Positions 33,788 through 58,109 of a stretch of 64,000 bases of DNA are shown in pieces (position 1 is the first letter of the stretch; each line of letters begins with the position of its first letter). The notes below the pieces were generated by a model. The model was not told the DNA's origin. It made no database searches and saw nothing but the letters and a program-made list of their open reading frames with translations. This DNA is from Enterococcaceae bacterium OF42-14pH9A. GTDB lineage: Bacteria > Bacillota > Bacilli > Lactobacillales > Enterococcaceae. A program made the translations under genes and the position numbers. The stretch lies in assembly GCA_027692465.1 (NCBI GenBank), contig JAQEYU010000001.1, positions 1,654,963 to 1,718,962 of the forward strand, given 5' to 3'.

Positions 33788-33816
33788 TTGTTTTTCCGCT
33801 AAAGAAACATTATAAT
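33788..33816 (+). promoter_or_regulatory. Promoter of the GntR gene with an operator half-site
   Basis: TTGTTT (33788-33793), 17-bp spacer, TATAAT (33811-33816). AAACATTATAAT over the -10 repeats most of the palindrome found in front of the PTS operon, suggesting autoregulation. The 33601-33787 stretch shows nothing else. Confidence 0.7.
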
Positions 33817-33962
33817 TTTTTCGTTGGAGCATTATCGGTATTGAACCTGTGAGGAAGAGGCACAACACCGGTCAGATAAGCTGGCCGAACCGGGGCTGGT
33901 CGCAGCAAGGAAATCCTGTGTGATTGGTGTGTCTAAGAGGATCAAAAAAGAGGAGGCGGGAA

Positions 33963-34664
33963 ATGAAACGGGCAAAAATCATGTATCTGGAGATTGCAGA
34001 CCAGCTCAAAGAGGAGATCATCAACGGCAAGTATCCTGTCGGTAGTTTTTTACCTACTGAAAATGAACTGGAGGAGCGGTTTGACGTCAGTAAAATCACT
34101 GTTCGTAAAGCCATTGAAATTTTGGCAGCCGACGAATATGTGGAGAAAAAAAGCGGCAAGGGAACGACTGTCTTGAGTGATCGTCCTTATAATAAACTGT
34201 CCAAAGCAGCCAGTTTTTCGCAGCTGTTGAAGGAATCTGACCTGCAGTTGGAAACGCGGATCTTGAATCTGAAGAAGGAAAAGCTGACTCCGGCTGATCC
34301 GCTTTATCCGTATTTCGGCAAAGAAATGCTGGTGTATGATCGACTGTATTTGCTGGAAGGGCGGCCCTATATCTTATTCAGCCACCATCTGCCGGCTGAG
34401 TTGGGCACACTGCCCCAAGAAGAGTTTGCGGCCAATTCGCTGTATCGGCTGCTGATTTTGCAGGGTTTTGAGATTGAAAGCTTTGCAGATGATTTTATCG
34501 CGGTGCAGCTGAGTCCCGAGGAGCGGCAGTTGCTGGAAACCGACAGTACTATCGGACTCAAGCGAATCCGCAAGTCCACCGCAGCTGACGGCAGTCTGGT
34601 GGAATATTCGACAGCGATTTACGATACGGCCCACCATCCTTATCAGATTGCTTATGAGACTTGA
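33963..34664 (+). CDS. GntR family regulator, HutC/UTRA type
   Basis: 233 residues. Winged helix with YLEIADQLKEEIINGKYPVG, FLPTENELEERFDVSKITVR in outline (residues 8-60), then a UTRA effector domain (about 85-230) that in this class binds a phosphorylated sugar or sugar acid. ATG 33963 has GGAGGCGGGAA just upstream; a longer in-frame start at 33924 is rejected. It precedes the PTS/MupG/Dga operon in the same direction, separated by a terminator, and is its likely local repressor. Confidence 0.88.
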   Translation: MKRAKIMYLEIADQLKEEIINGKYPVGSFLPTENELEERFDVSKITVRKAIEILAADEYVEKKSGKGTTVLSDRPYNKLSKAASFSQLLKESDLQLETRILNLKKEKLTPADPLYPYFGKEMLVYDRLYLLEGRPYILFSHHLPAELGTLPQEEFAANSLYRLLILQGFEIESFADDFIAVQLSPEERQLLETDSTIGLKRIRKSTAADGSLVEYSTAIYDTAHHPYQIAYET

Positions 34665-34781: not shown

Positions 34782-34842
34782 AAAAAACGTTTACAACTTT
34801 CGGGAAGCGTGTTATATTTCTTCTTGTAAACATTATAATGTT
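34782..34842 (+). promoter_or_regulatory. PTS operon promoter with cre-like site and 14-bp palindromic operator
   Basis: TTTACA (34790-34795), 17-bp spacer, TATATT (34813-34818). A perfect palindrome AACATTATAATGTT (34829-34842) covers the start region and is the probable GntR operator. AAAAAACGTTTACAA (34783-34797) over the -35 resembles a CcpA cre box, which would add catabolite repression. Confidence 0.75.
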
Positions 34843-34870
34843 ATGAACTAAAAAGTAGGAGGGTATCGAA

Positions 34871-36208
34871 ATGAAAGGATTTGTAGGGGTCATCGAGCAG
34901 AAGATCATGCCGCTGGCCAATAAGATGGGCAATCAACGTCATATGGTAGCCATTAGAAAAGGGATCATCGCCACCATGCCGCTGACCATCGTAGGATCGT
35001 TTTTCACGATTCTTTTGAATATTCCGGTTGAGTCGATTGCTGCCGTAATCGAGCCTTATCGGGAAGTATTGGATGTGCCGTTTCGTTATACTGTCGGTAT
35101 TTTGGCCTTGTATGCTACTTTCGGAATCGCATCTTCTTTAGCTCGTTCGTATAAGTTGGATTCTCTAACAGCAGGTATCTTAGCCACCATGGCTTTCCTG
35201 GTGACTGCTGCTCCGCCGCTCAGAGTATTGGAGAATGTTGACGGTGTGATTGCAGCAGGGCGTTATATCAACATTGCCAATCTGGGATCAAGCTCGTTGT
35301 TTGGTTCTATTGTTACAGCAATTGTATCAGTTGAAATTTATCGTTTCTTCATTGTGAAAAATATTACTATTAAAATGCCTGACGGAGTACCACCGGAAGT
35401 TTCGAATTCCTTTATCGCATTGATTCCCGGTGCAGCGATCTTGATCCTTTTTTGGGTGATCCGCCATATGATCGGTTTTGATCTGAACGGTTTCTTGAGT
35501 AATCTATTGATGCCATTAAAAGGAATCCTAGCCGGAAACAGTCTTTTTGGCGGACTTCTTACCGTATTTTTAATCTGTTTCTTCTGGGTTTTGGGAATTC
35601 ATGGCCCAGCGATTATGGGTCCGGTTATTCGACCGTTTTGGGATATGTCCATTGCAGAAAATATGGAAGCTTTCCAAGCCGGAACCAGCGCGCATGATCT
35701 GCCAAACTTGTTCACAGAACAGTTCTTACAATGGTTTATCTGGATCGGCGGTGCCGGGACGACATTAGCACTGGTTGTTTTGTTCTTATTCTCAAAATCG
35801 AAATATTTGAAAAAATTGGGTCAATTATCGATTTTGCCTGGATTGTTCAATATCAATGAGCCAGTAATTTTTGGAGCGCCCATTGTAATGAATCCAGTTC
35901 TGGCGATTCCGTTTATCGGTGCGCCCTTGATCACTACAACGATTTCGTATTTTGCCACTGTTTCGGGATTGGTTCCCCGCATGGCTGCACGTCTTGGTTT
36001 TGCCATGCCGGCACCGATTGCGGCATGGATGAGTACGGACTGGAGCATTGCCGCAGCGATTTTAGTGATTTTCAATTTTGTATTGACGCTGGGCATTTAC
36101 TATCCGTTCTTTAAAGCTTTTGAAAAACAACAGTTGGAAAAGGAAGCCGAAGAGTTGGCCCTTGAAGCTGCGGCAAAAGCGAAGCCGCAGAATGTTACCG
36201 TATCTTAA
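34871..36208 (+). CDS. PTS EIIC component, lactose/cellobiose/chitobiose family
   Basis: A 445-residue membrane transporter that imports and, with EIIA and EIIB, phosphorylates a disaccharide. About ten membrane segments; KGIIATMPLTIVGSFF near the start, ILGIHGPAIMGPVIRPFWD-like loop (FWVLGIHGPAIMGPV, in outline, about residues 238-252), and LPGLFNINEPVIFGAPIVMNP with the conserved N-E-P. There is no EIIA or EIIB gene here, so they must be shared from another cellobiose-type system. AGGAGGG lies 9 nt before the ATG. First gene of the operon. Confidence 0.92.
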   Translation: MKGFVGVIEQKIMPLANKMGNQRHMVAIRKGIIATMPLTIVGSFFTILLNIPVESIAAVIEPYREVLDVPFRYTVGILALYATFGIASSLARSYKLDSLTAGILATMAFLVTAAPPLRVLENVDGVIAAGRYINIANLGSSSLFGSIVTAIVSVEIYRFFIVKNITIKMPDGVPPEVSNSFIALIPGAAILILFWVIRHMIGFDLNGFLSNLLMPLKGILAGNSLFGGLLTVFLICFFWVLGIHGPAIMGPVIRPFWDMSIAENMEAFQAGTSAHDLPNLFTEQFLQWFIWIGGAGTTLALVVLFLFSKSKYLKKLGQLSILPGLFNINEPVIFGAPIVMNPVLAIPFIGAPLITTTISYFATVSGLVPRMAARLGFAMPAPIAAWMSTDWSIAAAILVIFNFVLTLGIYYPFFKAFEKQQLEKEAEELALEAAAKAKPQNVTVS

Positions 36209-36273
36209 AAAGGGGAGGTTGGGTCTGCGGTCGATGGATTTCGACTGTCGACTTGACCTTTTTGGTGATTAAA

Positions 36274-36534
36274 ATGATGATTTTAGTGATAATCCTGTTT
36301 AGTGTCTTACAGATTTTTATAGCGAAAAAAGGCTTGCCGCCACAATTAGCTGCTGTCAAACTGCGATATCTGCTTTTAGGAAGCATCCTATTGATTGCTG
36401 GCTGCATGCTGTTAGGAATCCTATTGAATATCGCAGTACCGTTGACGGCTGTTGCTACGGTGACTACCAGTGTGGTGATCAGTTATCGTTTTCGAATCAG
36501 CTATGCGGAAATAGAGAAAGGAAAAATCATATGA
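36274..36534 (+). CDS. Small membrane protein in the PTS operon
   Basis: 86 residues, or a few more if an upstream TTG at 36253 is used; the ATGs at 36274 and 36277 have only GGTGAT nearby. Two hydrophobic segments: ILVIILFSVLQIFIA (about 3-17) and a long second block (about 37-75) that could cross twice, with a short charged tail. I recognise no family. It overlaps the MupG-like gene start by 4 bp (ATGA), so it is translated with the operon. It may assist the PTS permease. Confidence 0.6.
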   Translation: MMILVIILFSVLQIFIAKKGLPPQLAAVKLRYLLLGSILLIAGCMLLGILLNIAVPLTAVATVTTSVVISYRFRISYAEIEKGKII

Positions 36535-37622
36535 AACGAAAATTAGGAATTTCCCTTTATCCGGATCACAGTGATCCGCAGATTGATAGAAACTACCTGA
36601 AGACAGCTCAAAAATATGGTTTTAGTCGTATTTTCATGAGTATGTTGGAGGTTACAGAAGGAAAAGAAGCTGTTGCTGCAAAATTTAAAGAGTTGATCTT
36701 TTTTGCAAAAGCGCTGGGGTATGAGACAATCTTAGATGTAGCACCATCGATTTTTGACGAATTGGGCATCAGCTATGATGATATGGGTTTTTTCCATGAG
36801 TTGGGAGCTGACGGGATTCGTCTTGATGTTGGCTTCGACGGCAATAAGGAGGCCATGCTGACTTATAATCCACAGCAAGTTGCCATTGAACTGAACATGA
36901 GCAATGATGTGGCATACTTAGACAATATTTTGTCATATCAAGCAAATCGACCGTTTCTATTTGGCTGTCATAATTTTTACCCACAAGCAGGAACGGCGCT
37001 TCCATATGAATTTTTTGCCAGCTGCAGCCGTCGTTTCAAAGAACAGGGAATCCGGACTGCTGCTTTTGTCTCCTCCCAGGTGGGAACAATCGGACCGTGG
37101 GATGTCAATGACGGTCTGCCCAGTTTGGAAATGCATCGAAATCTGGCTCCGGCAACGGCGGCCAAGCATTTGTTTGCTACTGGCTTAATTGATGATGTGA
37201 TTATTGGTAATGCGTATGCTTCTGAAGCGGAGTTGGCAGAGCTGGGCTCCATCAATCGCTATCAGACAGAATTCTCAGTGGAATTTTTGCCATCAGCCAG
37301 TGAACTTGAAAAACAGATCGTTTTGAAAGAACAGCATTTTCGTCGGGGTGATATCACGGAAATGGTGATTCGTTCCACAGAGGTCCGAAAGAAATACAAG
37401 TCTGCGGATAATCAGCCTCATGATAATCTGGAAGCATTTCAACCGGGGGATATTGTAATCGGGAACAATGATTTCGGCAAATATAAGAATGAATTACAGT
37501 TAGTGTTGCAGACTCATAAAGACAGCCGTAAGAACAAAGTTGGTGCTATCAGAACAGCAGAACAGATTTTACTGCCGTTTATCGCACCGTGGTCGAAGTT
37601 TCGTTTCACAGAAAAAAACTAA
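36531..37622 (+). CDS. MupG-like 6-phospho-glycosidase (DUF871)
   Basis: A 363-residue TIM-barrel protein plus a small C-terminal beta domain, of the DUF871/MupG family. The known member hydrolyses MurNAc-6-phosphate-GlcNAc made by PTS uptake of wall disaccharide. Signature stretches: KLGISLYPDHSD, FSRIFMSMLEV, LDVAPSIFDELGIS, GADGIRLDVGFDG, LFGCHNFYPQAGTALPY. Here no MurNAc-6P etherase (murQ) is adjacent. The neighbours are instead an N-deacetylase-like protein and the glucosaminate branch, so the natural disaccharide may carry an aldonic amino sugar. AAAGGA 8 nt before the ATG. Confidence 0.85.
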   Translation: MKRKLGISLYPDHSDPQIDRNYLKTAQKYGFSRIFMSMLEVTEGKEAVAAKFKELIFFAKALGYETILDVAPSIFDELGISYDDMGFFHELGADGIRLDVGFDGNKEAMLTYNPQQVAIELNMSNDVAYLDNILSYQANRPFLFGCHNFYPQAGTALPYEFFASCSRRFKEQGIRTAAFVSSQVGTIGPWDVNDGLPSLEMHRNLAPATAAKHLFATGLIDDVIIGNAYASEAELAELGSINRYQTEFSVEFLPSASELEKQIVLKEQHFRRGDITEMVIRSTEVRKKYKSADNQPHDNLEAFQPGDIVIGNNDFGKYKNELQLVLQTHKDSRKNKVGAIRTAEQILLPFIAPWSKFRFTEKN

Positions 37623-37661
37623 GGGACGACTTGTTCAAGTCCCGGAAGAAGGATGAAGAAG

Positions 37662-38774
37662 ATGTATGATTTGGTGATCAGAAACGGACGCACAATCAGA
37701 GGTGAGCGCTTGGAGATTGCTGTCACTGATGGGAAAATCAGCGAGGTAGCTGCAGTTGTCAGCGGCCGCGGTCAAAAAGAGCTGACGCTTGCTCCTGGAG
37801 AGCTGTTGTCTGCCGGCTGGATCGATGATCACGTTCACTGTTTTGAAGAAATGGATCTGTATTACGATTATCCCGATGCCATCGGGGTTGAAAAAGGGGT
37901 CACTACGGTAATCGATGCCGGCACGACCGGTGCGGAAAATGTCGGTCGTTTTTATCAGCTGGCCAAGGCTGCTAAAACCAATGTCTATGCGTTGGTGAAT
38001 ATTTCAAAATACGGGATTGTCGAACAAGATGAACTGGCCGATCTGACGAAAGTCCAGTCGCAGCTGGTGGCTGAGGCCTTAAAGCAATATCCTGATTTTA
38101 TTGTCGGAATCAAAGCCCGTATGAGCAGGACTGTGATTGGCGACAATGGGATTAAGCCGCTGCTTATGGCAAAAGAGATCCAAGCAGCAAATGAAAAGCT
38201 GCCGCTGATGGTCCACATCGGCTCCAATCCCCCGGAACTGGCGGATATTTTGGCGGTGATGGAGAAAAAGGATGTACTGACCCATTGCTTCAACGGCAAA
38301 CCAAACGGAATTTTGGACCAGCAGACAGATTGCATCAAAGATTTTGCCAAAGACGCCTATGAGCGGGGAGTAATCTTTGATATCGGTCACGGTACCGACA
38401 GCTTCAACTTTCACGTTGCTGAGAAGGCGCTGGCTGCCGGGATCAAATGCCACAGTATCAGTACCGATATCTACATCCGCAATCGGCAGAACGGACCGGT
38501 CTATGATATGGCGACTACTCTGGAAAAGCTGCACTTGGTGGGTTATTCTTGGGAGGAAATCATCAACAAGATCACGCTGGCGCCGGCTGAGAATTTCAAC
38601 TTGGCGAAAAAAGGCCGGCTCCAGCCGGGGATGGATGCGGACTTCACCATCTTCACTATCGCTGACGGACAAAAGCAGCTGATCGATTCCAACGGTAATG
38701 TCCGGACGACTGCGGAAGTGATTCAACCGGTCAAAACGATTATAGGAGGCAGAATCTATGACAATCAGTTATGA
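37662..38774 (+). CDS. Amidohydrolase/deacetylase family metallohydrolase (EF0837-like)
   Basis: A 370-residue amidohydrolase with H57/H59 (DDHVHCFEE), probable carbamylated K151 (VGIKARMS), VHIGSNPP, THCFNGKPNG, and the late Asp in SISTDIYI. It belongs with the enterococcal protein once labelled adenine deaminase that regularly precedes a DgaE-like lyase. From context I infer N-deacetylation of an N-acetylated amino-sugar acid. The ATG at 37662 is 9 nt after AGAAGG; the in-frame ATG at 37653 sits directly on that site. It overlaps dgaE by 17 bp. Confidence 0.85.
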   Translation: MYDLVIRNGRTIRGERLEIAVTDGKISEVAAVVSGRGQKELTLAPGELLSAGWIDDHVHCFEEMDLYYDYPDAIGVEKGVTTVIDAGTTGAENVGRFYQLAKAAKTNVYALVNISKYGIVEQDELADLTKVQSQLVAEALKQYPDFIVGIKARMSRTVIGDNGIKPLLMAKEIQAANEKLPLMVHIGSNPPELADILAVMEKKDVLTHCFNGKPNGILDQQTDCIKDFAKDAYERGVIFDIGHGTDSFNFHVAEKALAAGIKCHSISTDIYIRNRQNGPVYDMATTLEKLHLVGYSWEEIINKITLAPAENFNLAKKGRLQPGMDADFTIFTIADGQKQLIDSNGNVRTTAEVIQPVKTIIGGRIYDNQL

Positions 38775-39846
38775 GAAATTCGGCTTGAAGGAAGTCATCA
38801 ATGCTTCGGGACGGATGACAATTCTGGGCGTTTCGAAGGTATCCGAGTCGGTACTGGCAGCTCAGCGTTTCGGTGGCGAGCATTTTTTTGAGATGGCGGA
38901 TCTTTCGGAAAAGACCGGTGCTTATTTAGCCGGGCTTTTGGATGTCGAAGATGCCCAGATCGTCTCCTCGGCTTCTGCTGGAATCGCCCAATCGGTGGCA
39001 GCTGTTATCGGCCAAGGAGAGGAGTACCATGCCTATCATCCGTACACGCCGCGTATCACTCGGCGGGAGATTGTCTTACCGAAGGGGCATAACGTGGATT
39101 ACGGTACACCGGTAGAAGTTATGGTGGAAATGGGCGGCGGTACAGTAGTTGAAGCCGGCTATGCCAACATGTGCACGCCGGAACATATCGAGATGATGCT
39201 GACGGAAGAGACCGCTGCTGTTTTGTACATCAAGAGCCATCATACAGTGCAAAAGAGTATGCTGACGGTGAAGGAAGCCGCGGCGGCAGCTCACCGTGGA
39301 GGCGTGCCCCTGATCGTTGATGCGGCAGCCGAAGAAGACCTCTTCAAATATATCCGCGACGGCGCTGATCTGGTGATCTACTCCGGAGCCAAAGCGATTG
39401 AAGGCCCTAGTGCCGGACTGGTGATTGGTAAAAAAGAGCTGGTCGGTTGGGTTCGCCTCCAAGGCAAGGGAATCGGCCGCAGCATGAAGATTGGCAAAGA
39501 CAATATCCTGGGCTTCACCCAGGCAGTTGAAGATTATCTGGCAAACGGCAGTGAGTCCGGTGCGGCCATGAAGGAACGCTTGGCACCTTTTGTCGCCGCA
39601 GTCAACGAAATTCCCGGATTAGCGGCTACAATTGTACAGGACAGCGCTGGGCGGGATATCTATCGGGCCAGTGTCAAAGTCACCGGCTCACAGACTGCTA
39701 AAGAAGTGATTCAACGGTTGAAGCAGGGCAATCCTGCCGTCTATACGCGGGAATACCAGGCAAACAACGGAATCATCGAATTTGATGTCCGGTCGGTAAA
39801 TGAAAATGAACTACAAAAAATCGTCAAGCAATTAGCGCACATCTGA
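38758..39846 (+). CDS. dgaE: DgaE-like D-glucosaminate(-6-phosphate) ammonia-lyase
   Basis: A 362-residue SelA-like PLP enzyme. DgaE in Salmonella removes ammonia from D-glucosaminate-6-phosphate to give KDPG. Landmarks: NASGRMTILGVSKVS, AGIAQSVAAVIG, PLIVDAAAEEDL and the Schiff-base K212 in YSGAKAIEGPSAGLV. AGGAGG 8 nt upstream, inside the preceding gene. As a KDG kinase is encoded three genes on, the substrate here may be the unphosphorylated acid. The TGA stop is inside the left end of repeat copy B. Confidence 0.85.
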   Translation: MTISYEKFGLKEVINASGRMTILGVSKVSESVLAAQRFGGEHFFEMADLSEKTGAYLAGLLDVEDAQIVSSASAGIAQSVAAVIGQGEEYHAYHPYTPRITRREIVLPKGHNVDYGTPVEVMVEMGGGTVVEAGYANMCTPEHIEMMLTEETAAVLYIKSHHTVQKSMLTVKEAAAAAHRGGVPLIVDAAAEEDLFKYIRDGADLVIYSGAKAIEGPSAGLVIGKKELVGWVRLQGKGIGRSMKIGKDNILGFTQAVEDYLANGSESGAAMKERLAPFVAAVNEIPGLAATIVQDSAGRDIYRASVKVTGSQTAKEVIQRLKQGNPAVYTREYQANNGIIEFDVRSVNENELQKIVKQLAHI

Positions 39847-39975
39847 AAACGTCGGCGGGATTCGGAGTTTTGCGTTCCTTTCGCCGAAAGCGAGAATAAA
39901 GTGCAGCTTATGCGGTGCGCATTCCGGTGAAAGGAACTAAAACAGCTGCCGCTGGCGTTTTTTTAGACACATCCG
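39833..39975 (+). repeat. Dispersed TIR repeat, copy B, inserted within the operon
   Basis: About 143 bp. The left end TAGCGCACATCTGAAAACG covers the last codons and stop of dgaE; the right end is GGCGTTTTTTTAGACACATCC. The interior shows GGGATTCGGAGTTTTGCG, TCGCCGAAAGCGAG, AAAGTGCAGCTTATGCGGTG and AACTAAAACAGCTGCCGCTG. It is the only insertion between dgaE and dgaF, where other genes of the operon overlap or lie within 40 bp. Confidence 0.75.
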
Positions 39976-40010
39976 AAAAGAAACCATTTATTTAAAAAGG
40001 AGAACACATC

Positions 40011-40751
40011 ATGTCATTGACCCCAAATTATTTAGAAGATCGTATTTGTTTGAATGTATTGGCCAACTCTGTTGAAAATGCCAAAGCCTGCTACGAAGCT
40101 GCCGAGGGACATGTGGTCCTGGGCGTTTTGTCGAAAAATTACGAAACTGACGAAGCGGCGATTGCCGATATGAAAAAATACCAGGAAGCTTGCGACAATG
40201 CGCTCTCAGTAGGGCTGGGTGCCGGCGATCCCAATCAAAGCCAAATGGTTTCCCGCTTAGCCGGCGTATTGCAGCCCCAGCATGTCAATCAGGTCTTCAC
40301 CGGAGTCGGCACATCCCGGGCACTTCTGGGGCAGGAGGAGACAGTGATCAATGGTCTGGTTTCGCCGACAGGAAAAGTCGGCTATGTCAATATCGCCACC
40401 GGTCCATTGAGCTCGAAATCACCGGAAGCCATTGTTCCTATTGAAACGGCGATTGCTCTGTTGAAGGATATGGGAGGCAGCTCTATTAAATATTTCCCGA
40501 TGAAGGGGTTGGCTCATAAAGAAGAGTACCAAGCGGTGGCCGAGGCGTGTGCCAAGCATGATTTCTATCTGGAACCGACCGGGGGTATCGATCTGGAGAA
40601 TTTCGAGGAGATCCTGCAGATTGCAGTAGCTGCCGGCGTCAAAAAGATCATTCCCCACGTGTACAGCTCGATCATTGACAAAGCCACCGGAGATACTCGT
40701 ACTGAAGATGTCAAAACACTGTTGCAAATGATGAAAAATACACTGGACTAA
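40011..40751 (+). CDS. dgaF: DgaF-like 2-dehydro-3-deoxy-phosphogluconate aldolase
   Basis: A 246-residue aldolase that cleaves KDPG to pyruvate and glyceraldehyde 3-phosphate. Family landmarks: LNVLANSVENAKACYEAAEG, SVGLGAGDPNQ, VFTGVGTSRALLGQ, a Schiff-base Lys candidate K160 in SSIKYFPMKG, and YLEPTGGIDLENF. This is the DgaF family, distinct in sequence from the short Eda aldolase. AAGGAG 8 nt before the ATG. Separated from dgaE only by repeat copy B, and 10 bp before the kinase. Confidence 0.88.
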   Translation: MSLTPNYLEDRICLNVLANSVENAKACYEAAEGHVVLGVLSKNYETDEAAIADMKKYQEACDNALSVGLGAGDPNQSQMVSRLAGVLQPQHVNQVFTGVGTSRALLGQEETVINGLVSPTGKVGYVNIATGPLSSKSPEAIVPIETAIALLKDMGGSSIKYFPMKGLAHKEEYQAVAEACAKHDFYLEPTGGIDLENFEEILQIAVAAGVKKIIPHVYSSIIDKATGDTRTEDVKTLLQMMKNTLD

Positions 40752-40761
40752 GGAGTCGACC

Positions 40762-41772
40762 ATGATGAAAATCGGTGCTTTCGGAGAAGTGATGCTGCGT
40801 TTGACGCCGCCGGAATACCTGCTTTTGGAACAAACCAATACCTTGCGGATGGAATTCACCGGGACCGGCGTAAATCTCCTGAGCAATCTCAGTCATTTGG
40901 GACAGCCGGTCAGCCTGATGACCAAGTTGCCGGATAATCGTTTGGGTCAGGCTGCCTGCGCCAATCTCAAACGCTTGGGAATCGCCCCGGACTATATTGG
41001 GTACAGCGGGGATCACCTGGGCAGTTTTTTTGCCGAAGTCGGTTATGGGCCCAGGGCAACTCAAGTCACTTACCAAAACCGCCGCAACAGTGCTTTCAGT
41101 CTGTCGCCGGCCGCAGCCTATGACTTGGAGGGGTTCGTTTCCGAAATGGATCTGATTCATATCTGCGGGATCACTCTTAGTCTGACTGAAGAAACGGCAG
41201 CGGCTGCTCAGGCATTGGCAAAAACGGCAGCGGCTGCCGGCAAGCAGGTCTGCTTCGACTTTAATTTCCGCCCCAGCCTGAATGATAAACCCGGTCAAAG
41301 AGCAGTGATGAAGCAGCGCTATCTGGCAATCCTGCCTCATACCGATCTGGTATTCGGCTCTGTGCGGGATCTGGTAGAACTGCTGGAATTCGGTGCGACT
41401 CCGAGTACGGCAGCTGAAGAAGAAGCTTTGATTCGGTCATTTCTGAAACAGTTTCACATCCGCCATTTTGCCGGTACCAGGCGTAGCCATGAGGCATCCG
41501 TTCCGACATTGACCGGGTGTCTGTATACCCGGACAGCGACTTATTTTTCTCAAACTTATCCTCTGCAGGTGCTGGATCGTATCGGGGCCGGGGATGCATT
41601 TGCGGCGGGGATCTTGTGGGGACTGGCCGAAGCAGCCGAGCCGCAGGAGACCGTGGAGTTTGCCTGCGCCAATGCGGTCCTGGCCCACACGATCGCCGGC
41701 GACGTGCCGCTGACCACAGAAAAAATGGTCCGCCACTTTATGACAGCTCCTCATGCCGATCTGCTGCGCTGA
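40762..41772 (+). CDS. kdgK: PfkB family sugar kinase, probably 2-keto-3-deoxygluconate kinase
   Basis: A 336-residue ribokinase-like kinase that should make KDPG from KDG and ATP, feeding the aldolase encoded just upstream. N-terminal GAFGEVMLRLTPPEY, substrate-loop GTGVNLLSNLSHLG, CFDFNFRPSL, and the anion hole/catalytic Asp in DRIGAGDAFAAGILWG. AAGGAG 9 nt before the ATG. Last gene of the operon before a good terminator. The gene symbol rests on context: PfkB kinases are hard to tell apart by sequence. Confidence 0.82.
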   Translation: MMKIGAFGEVMLRLTPPEYLLLEQTNTLRMEFTGTGVNLLSNLSHLGQPVSLMTKLPDNRLGQAACANLKRLGIAPDYIGYSGDHLGSFFAEVGYGPRATQVTYQNRRNSAFSLSPAAAYDLEGFVSEMDLIHICGITLSLTEETAAAAQALAKTAAAAGKQVCFDFNFRPSLNDKPGQRAVMKQRYLAILPHTDLVFGSVRDLVELLEFGATPSTAAEEEALIRSFLKQFHIRHFAGTRRSHEASVPTLTGCLYTRTATYFSQTYPLQVLDRIGAGDAFAAGILWGLAEAAEPQETVEFACANAVLAHTIAGDVPLTTEKMVRHFMTAPHADLLR

Positions 41773-41854
41773 TTAAATGAGACTTGCTTCGACACTTGGC
41801 CTATTATTTGTGAACTCTCTGGCTGTAACAGCCTGAAATCTGAATATTTAAAAG

Positions 41855-41897
41855 CGGAGCAGTCTTCCGAAGTTTTCGGATGGCTGCTCCGTTTTTT
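41855..41897 (+). terminator. Terminator of the PTS-mupG-dga operon
   Basis: CGGAGCAG (41855-41862) pairs with CTGCTCCG (41884-41891), extended inside by TCCG/CGGA, then six Ts. Confidence 0.9.
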
Positions 41898-46776: not shown

Positions 46777-47688
46777 ATGAAGAAATTATCTGAGATTTGG
46801 AAGCAACGGCAACTGCATTGGATGGTTCTCCCGGGTGTCGCATTTATGATCGTGTTCAACTATATCCCCATATATGGGATCGTTATTGCATTTAAGAACT
46901 ATACGATCGTAGATACCATTACCTCGGCACCTTGGGTAGGATTGGACAACTTCAAGATCATAATGGAAGACGCCTTCTTTTGGGAAGCAGTCCGCAACAC
47001 TTTGGGAATCAGCCTGTTGAAGTTGGGGCTGGGCTTTATGATTCCCATCGTACTGGCCATTATGATTTTTGAAATGAAGGATGGACCATTGAAAAAATTC
47101 ATTCAAACCGTTTCCTATATTCCCCACTTTTTCTCATGGATCGTGTTGGGCGGGATGCTGATCTCCTGGCTGTCCTCCAGCGGTTTTTTGAATCAGGTGC
47201 TGATCTCGTTGGGAGTGATGGACAAAGGAGTCAACCATCTGCTGGATCCGGACAAGTATTGGTGGATCGCCGTGTTGTCTGACCTTTGGAAAGAAGTCGG
47301 CTGGGGAACAATCCTTTATCTGGCAGGGATGTCCCGGATCGATCCGACATTTTATGAAGCCGCCCGAATCGACGGTGCGACTAAACTGATGCAGATCAGA
47401 AAAATCACGCTGCCTTTGTTGACGCCGATCATTTCGTTGAATCTGATCTTGAATGTCAGCGGGATCTTGGGTTCCAATCTGGATCAGACATTGGTCTTGA
47501 TGAATTCACAAAACCAAAGCAAATCCGAAGTTATCAACTCCTTCGTCTATCGAATGGGGCTGGCACAAGGGGACTTCTCTTATGCAACGGCTGTCGGTTT
47601 GGGGATTTCAGTAATTTCGGTCATCCTGCTGGTAATCACGGACCGGGTAACCCGTAATCTGAACAATGGTAAATCAGTTATTTTATAG
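46777..47688 (+). CDS. Sugar ABC transporter permease (LplB type)
   Basis: A 303-residue inner-membrane subunit with six membrane segments and the ATPase-contact EAA loop YEAARIDGATKLMQIRKITLPLL in outline (about residues 190-212). The N-terminal PGVAFMIVFNYIPIYGIVIAF is typical of the LplB/YtcP class, which imports oligosaccharides. AGGAGAGG 9 nt upstream. No ATPase gene is in the locus; a shared MsmX/MsmK-type ATPase is expected. First gene of the operon. Confidence 0.92.
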   Translation: MKKLSEIWKQRQLHWMVLPGVAFMIVFNYIPIYGIVIAFKNYTIVDTITSAPWVGLDNFKIIMEDAFFWEAVRNTLGISLLKLGLGFMIPIVLAIMIFEMKDGPLKKFIQTVSYIPHFFSWIVLGGMLISWLSSSGFLNQVLISLGVMDKGVNHLLDPDKYWWIAVLSDLWKEVGWGTILYLAGMSRIDPTFYEAARIDGATKLMQIRKITLPLLTPIISLNLILNVSGILGSNLDQTLVLMNSQNQSKSEVINSFVYRMGLAQGDFSYATAVGLGISVISVILLVITDRVTRNLNNGKSVIL

Positions 47689-47699
47689 GAGGTGGCGAA

Positions 47700-48581
47700 A
47701 TGATCAAACGACATTCACAAGAAAACAAATGGTTTTACTTTTTCAACACGCTGATCCTGATTTTGTTCTCACTGCTGATCATCGTGCCCATCTGGAACAT
47801 TCTGGTGTCTTCTTTTTCAGCCAACTCCGGTTTGGGACAAGACGGCATGGTACTCTGGCCGAAAAACTTTACTCTCGAAAATTACAAAAAGGTTTTCTCC
47901 GACGCCAGTATTCCACGGGCTTTTGGAGTCTCCATTTTGAAGACGGTGATCGGGGCCTTGACCCATACGCTGTTTTGTTCGATCGTGGCTTACGGGTTGA
48001 GTAAATCTCATCTGATCGGCCGCAGCTTTTATACTACGCTGGGAGTTATCACGATGTACTTTGGCGGTGGGATGATCCCCACCTATCTCTTGATTAAGTC
48101 GTTGGGACTGCTGGATACTTTTTGGGTCTACATCATTCCGGCACTGTTTTCTTATTATGACACAGTGATTCTGATGAACTTCTTTCGGGAGATTCCACCT
48201 TCTTTGGAGGAGTCGGCAAAAATCGATGGGGCTTCGGAATTCACCATTTTCGCCAAAATCTTCCTGCCGCTGACCAAGCCGGCATTGGCGACCATCATTT
48301 TATTCAATGGGGTCGGGCAGTGGAATGATTTTATGACCACAAAATTGTATATCACCAAAGAATCCCTCTACCCGCTGCAGATGAAGATTTACGAAATCAT
48401 CGTACAGTCCAATCTCAGCACCATGACAGAAAGCGGCAGTACCGACGTGGTTGTTCAAGCAACCACTCGCGGAGTGCAGCTGGCCACCATTGTGATCACA
48501 ACAATTCCGATATTGGTGATCTATCCGCTGCTGCAAAAGCACTTCATCGGCGGCATGATGGCAGGGGCAGTCAAAGAATAA
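47700..48581 (+). CDS. Sugar ABC transporter permease (LplC type)
   Basis: The 293-residue second permease of the importer. Six membrane segments; EAA loop LEESAKIDGASEFTIFAKIFLPL in outline (about 170-192); C-terminal PLLQKHFIGGMMAGAVKE, the usual end of this class. It begins 11 bp after the first permease, with AGGAGG 8 nt upstream. The 87-bp gap that follows can form a GC-rich hairpin, commonly found between permease and binding-protein genes. Confidence 0.92.
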   Translation: MIKRHSQENKWFYFFNTLILILFSLLIIVPIWNILVSSFSANSGLGQDGMVLWPKNFTLENYKKVFSDASIPRAFGVSILKTVIGALTHTLFCSIVAYGLSKSHLIGRSFYTTLGVITMYFGGGMIPTYLLIKSLGLLDTFWVYIIPALFSYYDTVILMNFFREIPPSLEESAKIDGASEFTIFAKIFLPLTKPALATIILFNGVGQWNDFMTTKLYITKESLYPLQMKIYEIIVQSNLSTMTESGSTDVVVQATTRGVQLATIVITTIPILVIYPLLQKHFIGGMMAGAVKE

Positions 48582-48668
48582 GTTCGGTTTTTGCGGCGCA
48601 GGACCGCCGAAAGCGCGCCGGCGATCTGAAAGCGTTGTTTCAACACTAAAAAGAAAGAGGTCAAAGAA

Positions 48669-50270
48669 ATGAAAAAAATACTGACAGGCACATTGTTGGC
48701 AGCAGCAGTCTTAGGTTTGGCTGCCTGCGGAAATGGCGGCGACAAAGATCAAGCGGCGGATTTTTCCATCAAAGACCGTTACGAACTGGATGAAAACACG
48801 CCAGCTTGGAAATTGGACAAAAAAGAAGAAACGACCAAAATCCGCTGGTATATCAATTCCGACTGGACAGCACTACCCTTTGGTAAAGATGTCACCACCG
48901 CCCAGATCAAAAAAGATCTTAATATCGATATCGAATTTCTTTCCGGTGACGACTCCAAACTCAATGCGATGATCTCAGGCGGCGACCTGCCTGATATCGT
49001 GACGCTCACCAGCAAGACCGGCCAAGCGGCTTTGAAGGCCGACAGCTGGGCCTATTCTTTGAACGATTTGGCTGAGAAATACGATCCTTACTTGATGAAA
49101 GCAGTTACTGAGGACACCTTTAAATGGTATTCATTGGACAACGGCAAGACATATGGTTACCCCAACTATTCCAATACTGCTGCGGACTATGAAAGCGGCA
49201 ATATTCCGGTAAACGATAATTTTGTGATCAGAGAAGATGTCTACGAAGCACTGGGTAAACCCGATGTTTCCAAACCGGAAGATTTCGTAAAAGTCATGCA
49301 AGATATCAAAGCTAAATTTCCTGATCTGACACCGATGGGCTTCACCACGGTTGGCGACGGCGCCGGTCCATTCACAGACAAGCTGCAGGACTTTTTGGGA
49401 GTTCCTTTAGAAGATGCCGATGGAAATTTCTATGACCGTAACTTGGATGAAGAGTATATCAACTGGTTATCAACACTGAATCAGGTTTATCGGGACGGCA
49501 ACATTTCCGATGACAGCTTCACTGATGACGGACCGACTTATGATGAAAAAGTCAAACAAGGCCAGTATGCAACGATCCTGGTAGCCGGCACCAGCGGGCA
49601 AGGCGGCAATTTCACCGAATTCAATAAAAATTCCGGCACGAAATATATTGCCATCGACGGTCCGGAGAGCACCAGTGACCGCAAGCCGACAATGAACCAA
49701 ACCGGGATCTCCGGCTGGTTGAGCAACTATATCACCAAAGATGCCAAAGATCCGGCAAAAGTAACAGAATTGTTCACTTATCTCATTGACGAACCGGGCC
49801 AGATCCTGACGAAATACGGCGTCGAAGGGGTAACCTATGAATACAATAAAGACGGCAAGATTGATTATCTGCCGGAAGTCAAAGCGATGGAACAAACCGA
49901 CAATGACGGTTACAACAAAAAATACGGCATCAGCCGCTTCAACTACTTTAACAACGACCGAGTCAATGCTTTGAAAGTCAGCACGGAATCTGCCCTGACT
50001 CAAATGCAGGAATGGGGCAAAGGCAAGCTGGTACCGCATTTCGTGATTGAAAACATCAATCCGGATCTGGGAACTCCGGAAGCCCGCTCCAATGAAGCAA
50101 TCGAAACCAAGCTGAACTCAAGCGTGATCTCCATGATCCGTGCCAAAGATGAGGGCGGTTTTACCAAAACTTTGGACGAATTCAAGAAATTCCTGGATGA
50201 CAACAAATGGGATGCGATTAAGAAGATCAAATCCGAAAAAATGACTGAAAACCGGGAAAAACTCCAATAA
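48669..50270 (+). CDS. Extracellular solute-binding lipoprotein of the ABC importer
   Basis: 533 residues with a lipoprotein signal (MKKILTGTLLAAAVLGLAAC, lipid-attached C20), a short Gly/Asp linker, and a long type-1 sugar-binding fold of the LplA/YtcQ class. It captures an oligosaccharide outside the cell for the two permeases. In the similar Listeria locus the binding protein takes sophorooligosaccharides, which fits the GH94 enzyme here. AAAGAGG 6-7 nt upstream. Confidence 0.92.
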   Translation: MKKILTGTLLAAAVLGLAACGNGGDKDQAADFSIKDRYELDENTPAWKLDKKEETTKIRWYINSDWTALPFGKDVTTAQIKKDLNIDIEFLSGDDSKLNAMISGGDLPDIVTLTSKTGQAALKADSWAYSLNDLAEKYDPYLMKAVTEDTFKWYSLDNGKTYGYPNYSNTAADYESGNIPVNDNFVIREDVYEALGKPDVSKPEDFVKVMQDIKAKFPDLTPMGFTTVGDGAGPFTDKLQDFLGVPLEDADGNFYDRNLDEEYINWLSTLNQVYRDGNISDDSFTDDGPTYDEKVKQGQYATILVAGTSGQGGNFTEFNKNSGTKYIAIDGPESTSDRKPTMNQTGISGWLSNYITKDAKDPAKVTELFTYLIDEPGQILTKYGVEGVTYEYNKDGKIDYLPEVKAMEQTDNDGYNKKYGISRFNYFNNDRVNALKVSTESALTQMQEWGKGKLVPHFVIENINPDLGTPEARSNEAIETKLNSSVISMIRAKDEGGFTKTLDEFKKFLDDNKWDAIKKIKSEKMTENREKLQ

Positions 50271-50289
50271 GCCACAGAGAGGAGACAAG

Positions 50290-50319
50290 AGAAGGACGGC
50301 CTCCGCAAGCCGCCCTTCT
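50290..50319 (+). terminator. Hairpin between binding-protein and DUF624 genes
   Basis: AGAAGGACGGC (50290-50300) pairs with GCCGCCCTTCT (50309-50319) through one mismatch, followed by a pyrimidine-rich but not pure T run. It is a probable partial terminator or 3' stabiliser that raises binding-protein mRNA over the downstream genes. Confidence 0.55.
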
Positions 50320-50329
50320 TCTACTTACT

Positions 50330-50929
50330 ATGATTGAAAAACTATTTTCTTTTGACGGTTGGTATTACCGCACCTTCACCTTTGCTGCCAATCTGATCAT
50401 CTTAAATCTGCTGTTTCTGACTACCGCCTGGACGGTAGTTTTAACGGGGCCTTCGCTGGCGGCATTGTATCAAAGTATCAATCGGCTTTTAAAAGAACAG
50501 GGGAATTCAGTGGTCAGGGATTATTATCGATTGCTGGCAGCCAATTTGAAGCGAGGCACGCTGCTGGTCCTTTTTCTGGCAGCCGTAACGGTATTTTTTG
50601 GCGGCAGTGTCTATTTGCTGATGGGTCTTTCCACCTCGTTAGGCTTTTTGGCGGTGGTGGCTGCGGCTTTGATGCTCTTGTTTCTGTCGATAGTGACAGT
50701 CGTCTACAACACATTGCCGTTGGCGTTCAAACCGGCCCTGCGCGATGCAGCTTATGTTCTGTTGGCCAGTACGGCTCATGGCATCATTTTGTTGATGATT
50801 CCGGTACTGGTGGCCGTTCTTTTGATCAAGGTCAACCTGATGCTGTACCTCATCGTCGGTTTTGCTGTGACTATCTGGCTGCAGCTGGTTTTCTTCAATA
50901 AAGTATTGGTGGTAAATGCAGATGAATAA
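50330..50929 (+). CDS. DUF624 (YesL-like) membrane protein
   Basis: 199 residues with four or five hydrophobic segments. The DUF624 opening FSFDGWYYRTFTFAANLIILNLLFLTT is recognisable (residues 5-31, in outline). These proteins accompany LplBC-type oligosaccharide importers; function unknown. The ATG at 50330 has no Shine-Dalgarno sequence; the nearest purine-rich site (GAGAGGAG) is before the hairpin at 50290, so translation may depend on folding of that hairpin bringing the site near. Confidence 0.8.
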   Translation: MIEKLFSFDGWYYRTFTFAANLIILNLLFLTTAWTVVLTGPSLAALYQSINRLLKEQGNSVVRDYYRLLAANLKRGTLLVLFLAAVTVFFGGSVYLLMGLSTSLGFLAVVAAALMLLFLSIVTVVYNTLPLAFKPALRDAAYVLLASTAHGIILLMIPVLVAVLLIKVNLMLYLIVGFAVTIWLQLVFFNKVLVVNADE

Positions 50930-51830
50930 CCCGGAGCGAGAACGCTTTTGGACGGCAACTGCTGCTCAGCTGGCGGCTGTACCCTTGGAGTTGGAGATTC
51001 GGCCGACAACCCCGCAGCCGGTAAAGTTTAAAAGTTTTTCAATCAGTTTCAACAGCTTGTACCATGAACGGATCCATGGCCTGCTGCTCTTGCCGGTGAC
51101 GGCCCGCAGCAAAGTGCCGGTGGTTCTGGATATCCTGGGCTATATGACACATATTCAACATGCGGAGGAATTCGCCCGCTGGCCAAAGATCGGCTGCGGC
51201 TGTCTGGTGATTGACAATCGTGGCCAGGGAGGTCAGACAGCAGATTCAGCACCTTATTTGAGTACAATGGCGGACCAACCGATGGGACGAGGGCTTTTGA
51301 CTGCTGCCGACAGCTATATGCATCGAATCACGGCTGATCAGCTGCGACTGTTGGAAGTAGTGGATCAGATTCCTGAATTGGACCGTGAGCAGCTCTTTCT
51401 TCACGGAAATTCCCAAGGCGGCGGGTTGGCACTCTTAGTGAACGGGATCTGTCGTCGCCCGATCCGAGCAGCTTTGGTCAATGTACCAAGCCATTCGAAT
51501 ATCCCGCAACGGATTAAGAAAAGGACCGGTTCCTACGGGGTGGTAGCAGATTTTTTGCAGCAGCATCCCGAAGAAAGAGCGGCTGTGCTGGCAGCAATGG
51601 CGATGTTTGATACAAAGTATTATGCTGCCGATATTGCCAATCCGGTCTTTGCTTCAGCAGCCAGTAAGGATCGCGTTTGCCCTGCGAAGGATTTTTTTGC
51701 GACCTACCAGCGTCTGACGGTTCCGAAAAGACTGACTGTCTATTGGGGAAAAGGACACGAAGGTGGCGGCAGTCGTCAACTGGTCCGTGAAATTGCACTG
51801 GTACAACAGCTGACAAAGGAGTTGAACTGA
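50922..51830 (+). CDS. Acetyl esterase of carbohydrate esterase family 7 (AXE1)
   Basis: A 302-residue alpha/beta-hydrolase that removes acetyl groups from sugars. The family 7 triad motifs are all present: RGQ in VIDNRGQGGQ, nucleophile S164 in HGNSQGGG, and HE in GKGHEGGG, with the acid Asp in ASKDRVCP. No signal peptide, so it acts in the cytoplasm on imported oligosaccharides. The start overlaps the DUF624 stop; ATG 50916 is the alternative. Its presence suggests the imported glycan is acylated. Confidence 0.88.
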   Translation: MNNPERERFWTATAAQLAAVPLELEIRPTTPQPVKFKSFSISFNSLYHERIHGLLLLPVTARSKVPVVLDILGYMTHIQHAEEFARWPKIGCGCLVIDNRGQGGQTADSAPYLSTMADQPMGRGLLTAADSYMHRITADQLRLLEVVDQIPELDREQLFLHGNSQGGGLALLVNGICRRPIRAALVNVPSHSNIPQRIKKRTGSYGVVADFLQQHPEERAAVLAAMAMFDTKYYAADIANPVFASAASKDRVCPAKDFFATYQRLTVPKRLTVYWGKGHEGGGSRQLVREIALVQQLTKELN

Positions 51831-51831
51831 A

Positions 51832-52599
51832 ATGCGCATCGCAACTTACAATGTCCGTGTCGATACGGATTTTGACGAAAGCTGGCAGTGGCCTTTTCGC
51901 AGTCGTTACGTTTTAGAACTGTTGGCATATCACGAATGGGACCTGGTGGGCATTCAGGAAGTCAGACCCAATCAAGTGTCCGATTTGAAAACAGTGACAG
52001 CTTACGAATGTCTCAGTGCAGAAAGAGACGGAGACGGTCATGGTGAAGGGCTGGCACTCTTGTACAAAAAGGAACGACTGCAGCTGAAAGACAGCGGCTT
52101 TTTCTGGCTTTCGGATACTCCGGAGCAACCGAGTATCCATCCGGAAGCCGGCTGCCCCCGGATTTGTTTGTGGGGGATCTTTACAGAAAGAAGCAGCGGT
52201 GCCGATTTTCTAGTAATCAATACGCACTTGGATCACGTTTCCGAAGCTGCCCGCCGAACCGGCATGCAGGTGATCTTGCAGCAGTTGGCAGAAAAGATTC
52301 GCCAGCTGCCTGCGATCCTGTTGGGAGATTTCAACGCACTGCCGGACGAAGCTGTCCATCGATTGATAAAACAGGACTTTGTAAACGGTAAAGTCCTCAG
52401 CCGACAGTCTCATTACGGACCTGACGGCACCTTTCAGGATTTCGATTATCGCTTGCCCTGGTCTCGGTTGGAAGAGATCGATTATATTTATCTTAAAAAT
52501 TTTACCGTCCAAAAAACGGCCGTACTGACGGATGCTTGTGATCGGCGCTTTCCTTCCGATCATTTTCCGCTGGCTATGACTGTCAATCTGAATGAATAG
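51832..52599 (+). CDS. Endonuclease/exonuclease/phosphatase-fold hydrolase
   Basis: A 255-residue EEP enzyme. The fold signature is clear: ATYNVRVDTD, metal Glu in GIQEVRPNQ, LVINTHLDHVSEAAR, GDFNALPDEA and the terminal SDHFPLAM. Members cleave phosphodiesters in nucleic acids, lipids or sugar phosphates. Cytoplasmic; starts 2 bp after the esterase. In a sugar operon a glycan or glycerophosphate diester is a more likely substrate than DNA, but this is inference. Confidence 0.82.
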   Translation: MRIATYNVRVDTDFDESWQWPFRSRYVLELLAYHEWDLVGIQEVRPNQVSDLKTVTAYECLSAERDGDGHGEGLALLYKKERLQLKDSGFFWLSDTPEQPSIHPEAGCPRICLWGIFTERSSGADFLVINTHLDHVSEAARRTGMQVILQQLAEKIRQLPAILLGDFNALPDEAVHRLIKQDFVNGKVLSRQSHYGPDGTFQDFDYRLPWSRLEEIDYIYLKNFTVQKTAVLTDACDRRFPSDHFPLAMTVNLNE

Positions 52600-52608
52600 G
52601 TGAGAAAA

Positions 52609-54756: not shown

Positions 54757-54775
54757 GAAACGAGTGAAGAAATCC

Positions 54776-57700: not shown

Positions 57701-58075
57701 GAAAACTTTGATAAACTTAGAGATGGCAGCGTTCACGTGAAAGGCGGCTGGCGGATCTATTCCAGCGGACCGGGAATCTATCTGAATCAGCTTTTGAGCA
57801 ATGTGCTGGGGATCCGTTCTGATCGGGATCACTATCAGTTTGATCCGGTGCTGCCGCAGGAATTGGATCAGCTGGTCATGGATTACCGTCTGGCAGATAA
57901 AAAAGTAACAATCCGGTTTGATTTGACCGGTGGGCGCCGATGCGTACTGTTAAACGGCCGCGAGCTGCCGCAGACGGTGCTGGATAATCCTTATCGGGCC
58001 GGTGCGATGGCAGTTGCCAAAGACGTATTGAAGGAACAGTTGAAAGACGATGACGAAATTGTCATCTGCAGCTGA
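54776..58075 (+). CDS. Large GH94 phosphorylase, probable 1,2-beta-oligoglucan phosphorylase
   Basis: About 1099 residues. It has an extended N-terminal beta-sandwich region, an (alpha/alpha)6 barrel with QYGGAAWGTRDVSQGPVEFF in outline and WPQWFMFDRYE, and the acidic motif GDGDWDDT with the catalytic Asp pair 751/752, equivalent to GDWND of GH94. The size matches the ~1110-residue sophorooligosaccharide phosphorylase of Listeria rather than cellobiose (about 800) or cyclic glucan (about 2800) enzymes. It would release glucose 1-phosphate from imported chains. The start is ATG 54776, or GTG 54764. Confidence 0.82.
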   Translation: MTMINLTKGTLQADFLATGDLYELSADGIMINQLNGNPLDGSLNQIWLRLHTDNGIQSAPLIGSNSNSRFSKGQDGLLWEGSFLQVVYQVRFLLGEGNCWFWQVRLEGKGETAELICGQDLGNAAKGAVQANEAYVSQYIDHKVLTAASGPLIVSRQNQPQAGRFPAIQSGALGTVTSFATDGYQFFGKEYVRTGIPWALSQEQLANEVYQYEFAYIALQSEKMQLTAPTEFVFYGSFTADHPAAVSEVLVTEAELKRAFDNLPLFAAETAAAGIVSEKQEKRGPVLAGEPLTDDEIDALFPERLFIEEENGQRLAFFTPEHHHVVLQEKELRMERSHGHILLSGTDLTVDRPLMSTTVYMNGLFNSQVVLGNTSSNKLMSNSRNALNAMPHSGQRIYLKEGGKWRMLGLASLFEMGLNSAVWYYKYRGDLLKIETYTVADGREIRTVFTSRRSQNYDILVTNHLLMSADETARYVLQKDEGLLTITAADDSEIRETYPELVYYLLAEQDYTLTDETALGATVDEPELLGLLFAATPRLNLTIQGSLEGAPFSQKPTTDIDEKAAYQAFIDELLQGFQLSHPTAEVASFNTLARWYCHNMLVHYLSPHGLEQYGGAAWGTRDVSQGPVEFFLALERPEIVADIIEKLFANQFADDGNWPQWFMFDRYEKQKADESHGDVIVWPMKVVADYLTHSGDLGILETMIPYTDRTTFEKTSELYPLLDHVKKEVAYIEAHFLPGTYLSCYGDGDWDDTLQPNDARLKKQMASSWTVALTCQVIGKLAAVLTDADAEYAAHLKELAENIKVDYERYILSDEILPGFVLQEGDHFEFIIHPTDKKTGIDYRLLPMTRSMIAELLTPQQAENHLAVIKEQLQFPDGVRLMNRPARYNGGVSTYFKRAEQAANFGREIGLQYVHAHIRFTEAMAKLGKNRETWKALQTINPIGLQEHVANASLRQSNVYFSSSDGDFKTRYEAQENFDKLRDGSVHVKGGWRIYSSGPGIYLNQLLSNVLGIRSDRDHYQFDPVLPQELDQLVMDYRLADKKVTIRFDLTGGRRCVLLNGRELPQTVLDNPYRAGAMAVAKDVLKEQLKDDDEIVICS

Positions 58076-58109
58076 TGGAACAAACCGTAATTTGAGGAGA
58101 GTGGAACCC

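Follow-up and report, generated by a model that had tools for sequence, protein, structure and literature searches.

Related amino-sugar pathways

A seven-gene operon, predicted to break down an amino-sugar disaccharide with an oxidized reducing end, lies in a stretch of 64,000 nucleotides from Enterococcaceae bacterium OF42-14pH9A (assembly GCA_027692465.1, contig JAQEYU010000001.1, positions 1,654,963 to 1,718,962 of the forward strand), referred to below as the window. The operon resembles several described systems, and differs from each of them in particular respects. The published accounts of these systems were available in part, and statements about them apply to the available text.

In Staphylococcus aureus, the MupG-MurQ-MurP-MurR system imports a β-1,4 amino-sugar disaccharide through a phosphotransferase system (PTS), after which it is split by MupG, a GH170/DUF871 6-phosphoglycosidase (PMC6262408). 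MupG is the founding member of GH170, and its authors expected other specificities in the family. The present operon shares this arrangement, but its EIIC is of the lactose/cellobiose type, it has no MurQ, and it adds a kinase, an amidohydrolase, DgaE, and DgaF, which would serve the aglycone. In Lacticaseibacillus paracasei, the chbRCDE/chbBA genes likewise pair a cellobiose-type EIIC with a GH170 protein, which is genetically needed for use of diacetylchitobiose and is likely a 6-phospho-chitobiose hydrolase (PMC12791066). There the aglycone is plain N-acetylglucosamine (GlcNAc), and the operon, as the available text describes it, contains a DUF3284 protein along with an EIIA and an EIIB of its own, but no sugar kinase, amidohydrolase, DgaE, or DgaF.

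The downstream genes recall the Salmonella DgaABCDEF system, in which a DgaE-type lyase and DgaF convert glucosaminate-6-phosphate into pyruvate and glyceraldehyde-3-phosphate (PMC9529869). In that system, the PTS phosphorylates the monosaccharide itself, and the available text mentions neither a glycosidase nor a deacetylase in the route; the DgaE of the window, moreover, scores under the DgaE equivalog cut-off. The chemistry proposed below is also that of the ong pathway of Pseudoalteromonas, in which N-acetylglucosaminate (GlcNAc1A) is deacetylated, deaminated, phosphorylated, and cleaved (PMC9537276). In the ong pathway, OngA cuts in the periplasm, an SSS transporter serves for uptake and no PTS is described in the available text, OngB is a D-aminoacylase-type mononuclear enzyme that deacetylates GlcNAc1A first, and the kinase acts last, on 2-dehydro-3-deoxygluconate (KDG).

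The Enterococcus faecalis genes EF_0830-EF_0839 and the Aeromonas genes AHA_3911-3917, both named in TIGR03577-03583, include the same EF_0837 and EF_0839 families as the operon. A tie of EF0839 and EF2975 to amino-sugar metabolism has been suggested (PMC7701990); beyond this, the available text gives these genes no function. In two Aeromonas strains, matches to OngB and OngC were distant or none according to the available text (PMC11653859), and the AHA_3911-3917 core, seen here by its family names only, might fill this gap in Aeromonas.

A PTS route for chitobionate or GlcNAc1A in Gram-positive bacteria was not described among the literature matches listed, which covered open papers only. 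Nor did these matches describe the use of chitobionate by Gram-positive bacteria that bear lytic polysaccharide monooxygenases (LPMOs), for which the operon offers a specific testable route. It also suggests functions for the EF_0837 family and for kinases of the 3ktn type.

Gene content and distribution of the operon

Open reading frame (ORF), NCBIfam, and Pfam profile searches of the window place seven ORFs at 34871-41772, all on the plus strand, with the gene of a GntR/UTRA-family transcriptional regulator upstream (33924-34664, plus strand, start codon uncertain; PF00392 and PF07702). The first of the seven encodes a PTS EIIC of the lactose/cellobiose family (34871-36208; TIGR00410, 393 bits against a cut-off of 236; PDB 3qnq, 306 bits), which does not reach the narrower cellobiose equivalog TIGR00359 (cut-off 434.45). 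This is followed by the ORF of a small hydrophobic or membrane protein of 93 amino acids without a match in NCBIfam or Pfam (36253-36534), and in many related loci an ORF of similar size separates EIIC from mupG. Across several kinds of GH170 loci, EIIC is repeatedly accompanied by a small hydrophobic protein of 83-95 amino acids.

The next genes encode a protein of the GH170 (MupG/DUF871) 6-phosphoglycosidase family (36531-37622; PF19200, 313.9 bits against 24; PF05913, 122.9 against 24.4; PDB 1x7f, 460 bits), an EF_0837-family amidohydrolase proposed to be an N-deacetylase (37653-38774; TIGR03583, 544.1 bits against 432.15; PDB 2ics, 573 bits), and a DgaE-family ammonia-lyase dependent on pyridoxal phosphate (PLP) (38758-39846; TIGR01437, 560.3 bits against 385.3). 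The last two are a DgaF-type 2-dehydro-3-deoxy-phosphogluconate aldolase (40011-40751; NF047796, 400.2 bits against an equivalog cut-off of 300; PDB 3m0z, 374 bits) and a PfkB-family sugar kinase, the proposed kinase of the released aglycone (40762-41772; PF00294, 110 bits against 25.8; PDB 3ktn, 390 bits). The PDB entries given for mupG, the amidohydrolase, DgaF, and the kinase are the closest solved relatives, to which 7lc0 is added for DgaE; we take 2ics and 3ktn to be E. faecalis proteins. Genes for EIIA and EIIB are missing from the operon, and lactose-type EIIA genes occur elsewhere in the genome in all 12 operon genomes tested. Neither murQ nor murP was found among the operon genes with NCBIfam and Pfam.

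A preliminary description of the window had reported seven genes running in one direction with overlaps, among them a PTS-type EIIC and a MupG-like glycosidase. The genes, families, and strand are as it had stated, and these two proteins reach their family cut-offs; overlaps are limited to two gene pairs (4 and 17 bases), the remaining intergenic gaps being 44, 30, 164, and 10 bases.

The best matches of the operon proteins are in Enterococcus, and that of mupG is in Enterococcus sp. CU9D (locus L001, 90%), where the flanking genes of the window also recur on either side. In a mupG scan of species-representative genomes, the amidohydrolase and dgaE genes adjoin mupG in 28 of 38 loci, carried by Enterococcus, Companilactobacillus, Stoquefichus, Clostridium, and metagenome-assembled genomes (MAGs) of Turicibacter, Lactobacillus, and Streptococcaceae. 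A phylum sample gave one further operon locus, L080. Many of the bacteria that keep the gene set are from the gut or from food. Of the 28 loci, 27 have EIIC, 26 have dgaF, and 25 have the kinase; L004 and L014 are cut off by contig ends and have neither dgaF nor kinase, L013 is without the kinase, and L017 is without EIIC and the small protein. Among 105 Enterococcaceae genomes, 75 have the amidohydrolase and 56 have the operon, defined as an amidohydrolase gene within 4 kb of mupG. Two of these genomes, G387 among the 56 and G381 among the 19 others, have an amidohydrolase fragment only. The recurrence of the genes in 28 of 38 loci and in 56 of 105 Enterococcaceae genomes means that their grouping is not due to chance.

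Proposed pathway

The locus is read here, with middling confidence, as a GntR-controlled catabolic operon for a β-linked amino-sugar disaccharide with an N-acetylated amino-aldonate at its reducing end, most likely chitobionate (GlcNAc-GlcNAc1A). EIIC, with EIIA and EIIB encoded elsewhere, would import the disaccharide and phosphorylate its non-reducing sugar. The GH170 enzyme would then yield GlcNAc-6-phosphate, which would pass to NagA and NagB, and free GlcNAc1A. The PfkB kinase would convert GlcNAc1A into GlcNAc1A-6-phosphate, from which the EF_0837-family amidohydrolase would remove acetate. The resulting glucosaminate-6-phosphate would be deaminated by the DgaE-family lyase to 2-dehydro-3-deoxy-6-phosphogluconate (KDPG), and DgaF would cleave KDPG into pyruvate and glyceraldehyde-3-phosphate. 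NagA is present in 29 of 29 operon genomes tested.

Gene content, conservation, the common palindrome, and the module structure described below are direct observations, from which we infer all substrates and the sequence in which kinase, deacetylase, and lyase act. The operon can be seen as a variant of known PTS-glycosidase and Dga-type pathways, with predicted substrates.

Regulation of the operon

A palindrome, ACATTATAATGT, at 34830-34841 is a probable operator, judged by its recurrence upstream of EIIC in related operons. Its first base is 41 bases ahead of the EIIC start, and it closely follows a promoter-like site on the plus strand (TTTACA-17-TATATT, 34790-34818) that matches the consensus at 10 of 12 positions, in a region where 13 promoter-like sites were counted against 9.5 expected. 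The 28 upstream regions examined came from the window, L080, and the scan loci, of which 26 out of 28 could be used (L002 and L017 lacked a usable region). The palindrome is exact in 22 of these 28 regions and present with at most one mismatch in all of them, compared to 27 of 2121 pieces of 250 bases in a background count that includes the same operon regions. Within the window, there is one exact copy and one further copy with one mismatch, at 33807. A 14-base form of the palindrome was sought in 16 operon genomes, and 13 carry one or two copies, with one at the operon in each. The reversed control pattern occurs once in G010, twice in G014, and nowhere else in the same 16 genomes.

Of the 17 scan loci that lack EF_0830-33 genes, 16 have a relative of the GntR gene next to the operon, and the seventeenth (L002) is cut by its contig. 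By this context, the GntR protein probably regulates the operon; it may bind the palindrome.

In genome G406, the operon is split into an EIIC-small protein-mupG-kinase part (L092) and a GntR-amidohydrolase-dgaE-dgaF part (L093). The palindrome precedes both halves, once exactly and once with one mismatch, the strongest indication of a single pathway made up of both halves. The view of the genes as one regulated unit, already put forward in the preliminary description, is thus borne out by a palindrome common to related operons and to both split halves. In a distant genome with a GntR gene beside the core, the amidohydrolase gene is closely preceded by a copy of this palindrome with one mismatch (L077, 10316).

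The kinase and the order of steps

The kinase is found in 55 of the 56 Enterococcaceae operon genomes, on another contig in G004 and G014. Among the 19 genomes that have the amidohydrolase but no adjacent mupG, it is found in one, the split-operon genome G406. Gene context was examined for six of these 19 (L084, L086, L091, L093, L098, and L099). Where the amidohydrolase-dgaE-dgaF core stands with EF_0830-33 genes and without mupG, no kinase occurs in the fetched stretch in eight of eight loci, of which L084, L086, L091, L098, and L099 are from Enterococcaceae and L078, L079, and L081 from outside the family. In eleven scan loci (L009-L017, L019, and L024), the mupG set is preceded by EF_0830-33 genes within a single run. 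By its distribution, the kinase goes with the EIIC/mupG module and not with the core. Since it tracks this module, its probable substrate is the free aglycone, which would be phosphorylated ahead of deacetylation and deamination. The data are most simply read as a core that acts on 6-phosphates and a kinase needed only where GH170 releases an unphosphorylated aglycone.

The EF_0830 family (PF14272; L012, 6022-6375) is a conserved glycine-rich SFCGS protein with a predicted sugar-phosphate isomerase fold of the RpiB/LacA type and an invariant cysteine within an FCGSGGAG stretch.

The preliminary description had placed the kinase later: free GlcNAc1A would be deacetylated, DgaE would make KDG, the PfkB protein would be a KDG kinase, and DgaF would cleave KDPG. 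This order is unlikely. It has a precedent in the marine ong pathway, where KdgK acts on KDG (PMC9537276), and the window kinase matches KDG-kinase models weakly and aligns to the PDB KDG kinase 2afb with 146 bits. However, its scores lie far below every KDG-kinase cut-off (NF052444, 43.7 of 400 bits; NF040938, 67.2 of 400; NF041332, 149.9 of 440), so that the assignment as a KDG kinase is not upheld. The lack of a kinase from 18 of the 19 genomes with the core but without the mupG module, and its place beside mupG in the split operon, also speak against it, and a kinase acting before DgaE fits this distribution better.

The active sites of the core enzymes bear on the same question, with residue counts made on ORFs above a length limit. 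In DgaE, H161, H162, K212, R303, R331, and R345 are invariant in 41 of 41 aligned sequences, window included. Arginines 301, 332, and 346 of Salmonella DgaE, docked against the 6-phosphate (PMC9529869), align to R303, R331, and R345 of the window, so that the catalytic histidine pair, the PLP lysine, and the docked phosphate arginine triad are all present. The PLP lysine is numbered 217 in the available text of that paper and stands at 213 in the aligned Salmonella chain; the carboxylate Arg226 of Salmonella DgaE is mostly lysine in the aligned family (36 of 41). The retained arginines are in line with a phosphorylated DgaE substrate and count against the KDG-kinase order, but they never vary and hence do not discriminate.

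In the amidohydrolase, the putative metal ligands H60, H62, K154, H188, H211, and D272 are invariant in 42 of 42 aligned sequences, window included. OngB has a Cys/His/His mononuclear metal site (PMC12017989), and the window protein, a TIGR03583 member with an HxH, K, H, H, D pattern, does not show such a site when compared with OngB as described in the available text. This difference likewise argues against the ong order. Two considerations count against a kinase-first order: the EF_0830-33 genes would have to supply the core with a phosphorylated substrate, whereas EF_0830 is predicted to fold like an isomerase, and a general KDG kinase elsewhere in the genome could serve the kinase-free genomes.

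Possible relation to chitin oxidation

LPMOs leave C1-oxidized ends. Complete hydrolysis of oxidized chitin leaves the oxidized sites as chitobionic acid, according to the available text of two papers (PMC8449059; PMC13325158). A survey of whether the gene set co-occurs with LPMO genes had been proposed in the preliminary description. LPMO_10 genes are found in 44 of the 105 Enterococcaceae genomes; 39 genomes have both operon and LPMO, 17 the operon only, 5 the LPMO only, and 44 neither (Fisher p 2.7e-10). In a groEL tree covering 103 of the 105 genomes (G387 and G414 had no groEL match), a dependent model beats an independent one with a likelihood-ratio statistic of 13.3 (chi-square p 0.0098), and none of 60 simulations gave a value as large. 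Outside two rich clades, which were delimited after inspecting the tree, the table is 5/15/1/43 (p 0.0096), and within the avium clade it is 3/2/1/14 (p 0.032). The statistical link is thus weaker after control for the tree yet survives it, although an LPMO of its own is not required of a carrier. Dependence on LPMO is a tendency, not a rule.

Several results weigh against a pathway for chitobionate. Fewer starting points were used in fitting the simulations than in fitting the observed data, and the two rich clades carry most of the LPMO link. LPMO was not found in 17 of the 56 operon genomes, including the closest relative (G001), nor, in a search of 37 genomes, in the 8 operon carriers that do not belong to Enterococcus, and of 29 operon genomes just 14 have GH18. 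Six LPMO genes were examined for a nearby palindrome, and none has one with at most one mismatch, hence no sign of joint regulation; matches with two mismatches occur in three of the six stretches. In addition, the window DgaE falls short of the DgaE equivalog NF047797 (353.6 bits against a cut-off of 600).

Some of these results favor another aglycone. The mechanism could be the same and the aglycone a different N-acylated amino-aldonate, in configuration or acyl group, without a tie to chitin. The many carriers that do without LPMO and the sub-cut-off DgaE are in keeping with this, and other acid sources are hinted at by locus L075 (7007-13945), where the core and kinase lie downstream of a Gfo/Idh/MocA oxidoreductase and other genes, with no PTS gene recognized in the stretch, perhaps for an internally made amino-aldonate. 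Set against these are the statistical LPMO link and the GH170 relatives studied to date, which serve GlcNAc or N-acetylmuramic acid (MurNAc) disaccharides according to the available accounts (PMC12791066, PMC6262408). A different aglycone is judged decidedly unlikely.

GH170 in other gene settings

GH170 genes 43-68% identical to that of the window occur in other gene settings. At L030, mupG (60% identical) is beside a NagK-like gene and near MurQ, and at L094 and L096, GH170 occurs with a NagK-like kinase and AnmK. In a tree of 53 mupG sequences, those from the NagK/MurQ, AnmK, and GH1 settings branch within the mupGs of the operon. GH170 can therefore be regarded as a shared tool, with neighbors that suit the aglycone. 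The same nesting means that the operon mupGs form no separate clade, so the glycone may differ from the one proposed, a further point against chitobionate. The central idea of the preliminary description, that GH170 frees an amino-aldonate for the downstream enzymes, is supported by the sister modules, which carry a NagK-like kinase or AnmK in place of these enzymes.

Two of the other settings form runs of their own. At L034 (8336-12254), EIIC, a small membrane protein, mupG (50%), and AnmK lie in one run, which suggests uptake of a disaccharide like GlcNAc-anhydroMurNAc. In avium-clade enterococci (L083, L085, L087, L090, and L097), the order is EIIB-EIIA-GNAT-EIIC-GH1-mupG (65-68%), in which the acetyltransferase is a puzzling member of a disaccharide PTS operon.

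At L076 (4610-13663, minus strand), genes for a MurQ-like protein, EIIBC, mupG, RpiR, amidohydrolase, dgaE, dgaF, kinase, and EIIA share a strand, and no gap between them exceeds 161 bases. Here the core has been joined separately to an import set of the MurNAc type. If one aglycone occurs attached to GlcNAc and to MurNAc alike, oxidized GlcNAc (GlcNAc1A) would suit, as far as one locus can suggest.

It is possible, though less likely than not, that EIIC, the small membrane protein, and GH170 make up a general import-and-split cassette with aglycone-matched partners, be it a NagK-like kinase, AnmK, or the present core. Here the cassette would serve oxidized amino-sugar disaccharides, with a new sugar-acid kinase acting first and deacetylation, deamination, and cleavage taking place on 6-phosphates. 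The core's separate coupling to a MurNAc-type PTS would imply that oxidized peptidoglycan as well as chitin is used as food, and chitin and cell-wall sugar salvage would be linked through one GH170 cassette.

These settings also raise the question of whether MurNAc is the glycone in the window operon itself. The substrate would then be an oxidized peptidoglycan disaccharide (MurNAc-GlcNAc1A), from which MupG frees MurNAc-6-phosphate for MurQ and the acid half passes through the same core. The single-strand run at L076, which joins a MurQ-like gene and EIIBC to the core, and the mupG of L030 are consistent with this, as is a MurQ above cut-off in 32 of 37 genomes. Against it, the operon genes include no MurQ, and MurQ is not above cut-off in operon genomes G011, G017, and G022. 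This last argument for a GlcNAc glycone is weak and rests mainly on G011, because G022 is a MAG of 1.1 Mb and EIIC is missing from the operon of G017. In addition, we know of no source of oxidized peptidoglycan. A MurNAc glycone is considered very unlikely.

Ordinary MurNAc-GlcNAc recycling as in S. aureus has a negligible chance of being correct: the MupG_N and MupG_C domains are over cut-off as it would have it, but the downstream genes are not passengers, because all of them are retained together in Enterococcus, Companilactobacillus, Turicibacter, Stoquefichus, and Clostridium and the split halves have the palindrome in common.

Other features of the window

An inverted-repeat insert occupies 39847-39963, between dgaE and dgaF. 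The repeat is long and ends in a T run, and it may reduce expression of dgaF and the kinase. The segment 39847-40010 folds with a predicted -53.3 kcal/mol (z -3.8). The insert is absent from the closest relative, L001. Parts of it are repeated in the window near 4086, 11841, and 60356. A hairpin with a T run near 41857-41897 is visible in the sequence, but it is not among the computed terminator-like sites. Farther downstream, at 46777-60157, a binding-protein transporter, an AXE1 esterase, a GH3 protein, an SOGP/GH94-like phosphorylase, a LacI regulator, and an esterase form a group that resembles a β-glucan utilization cluster.

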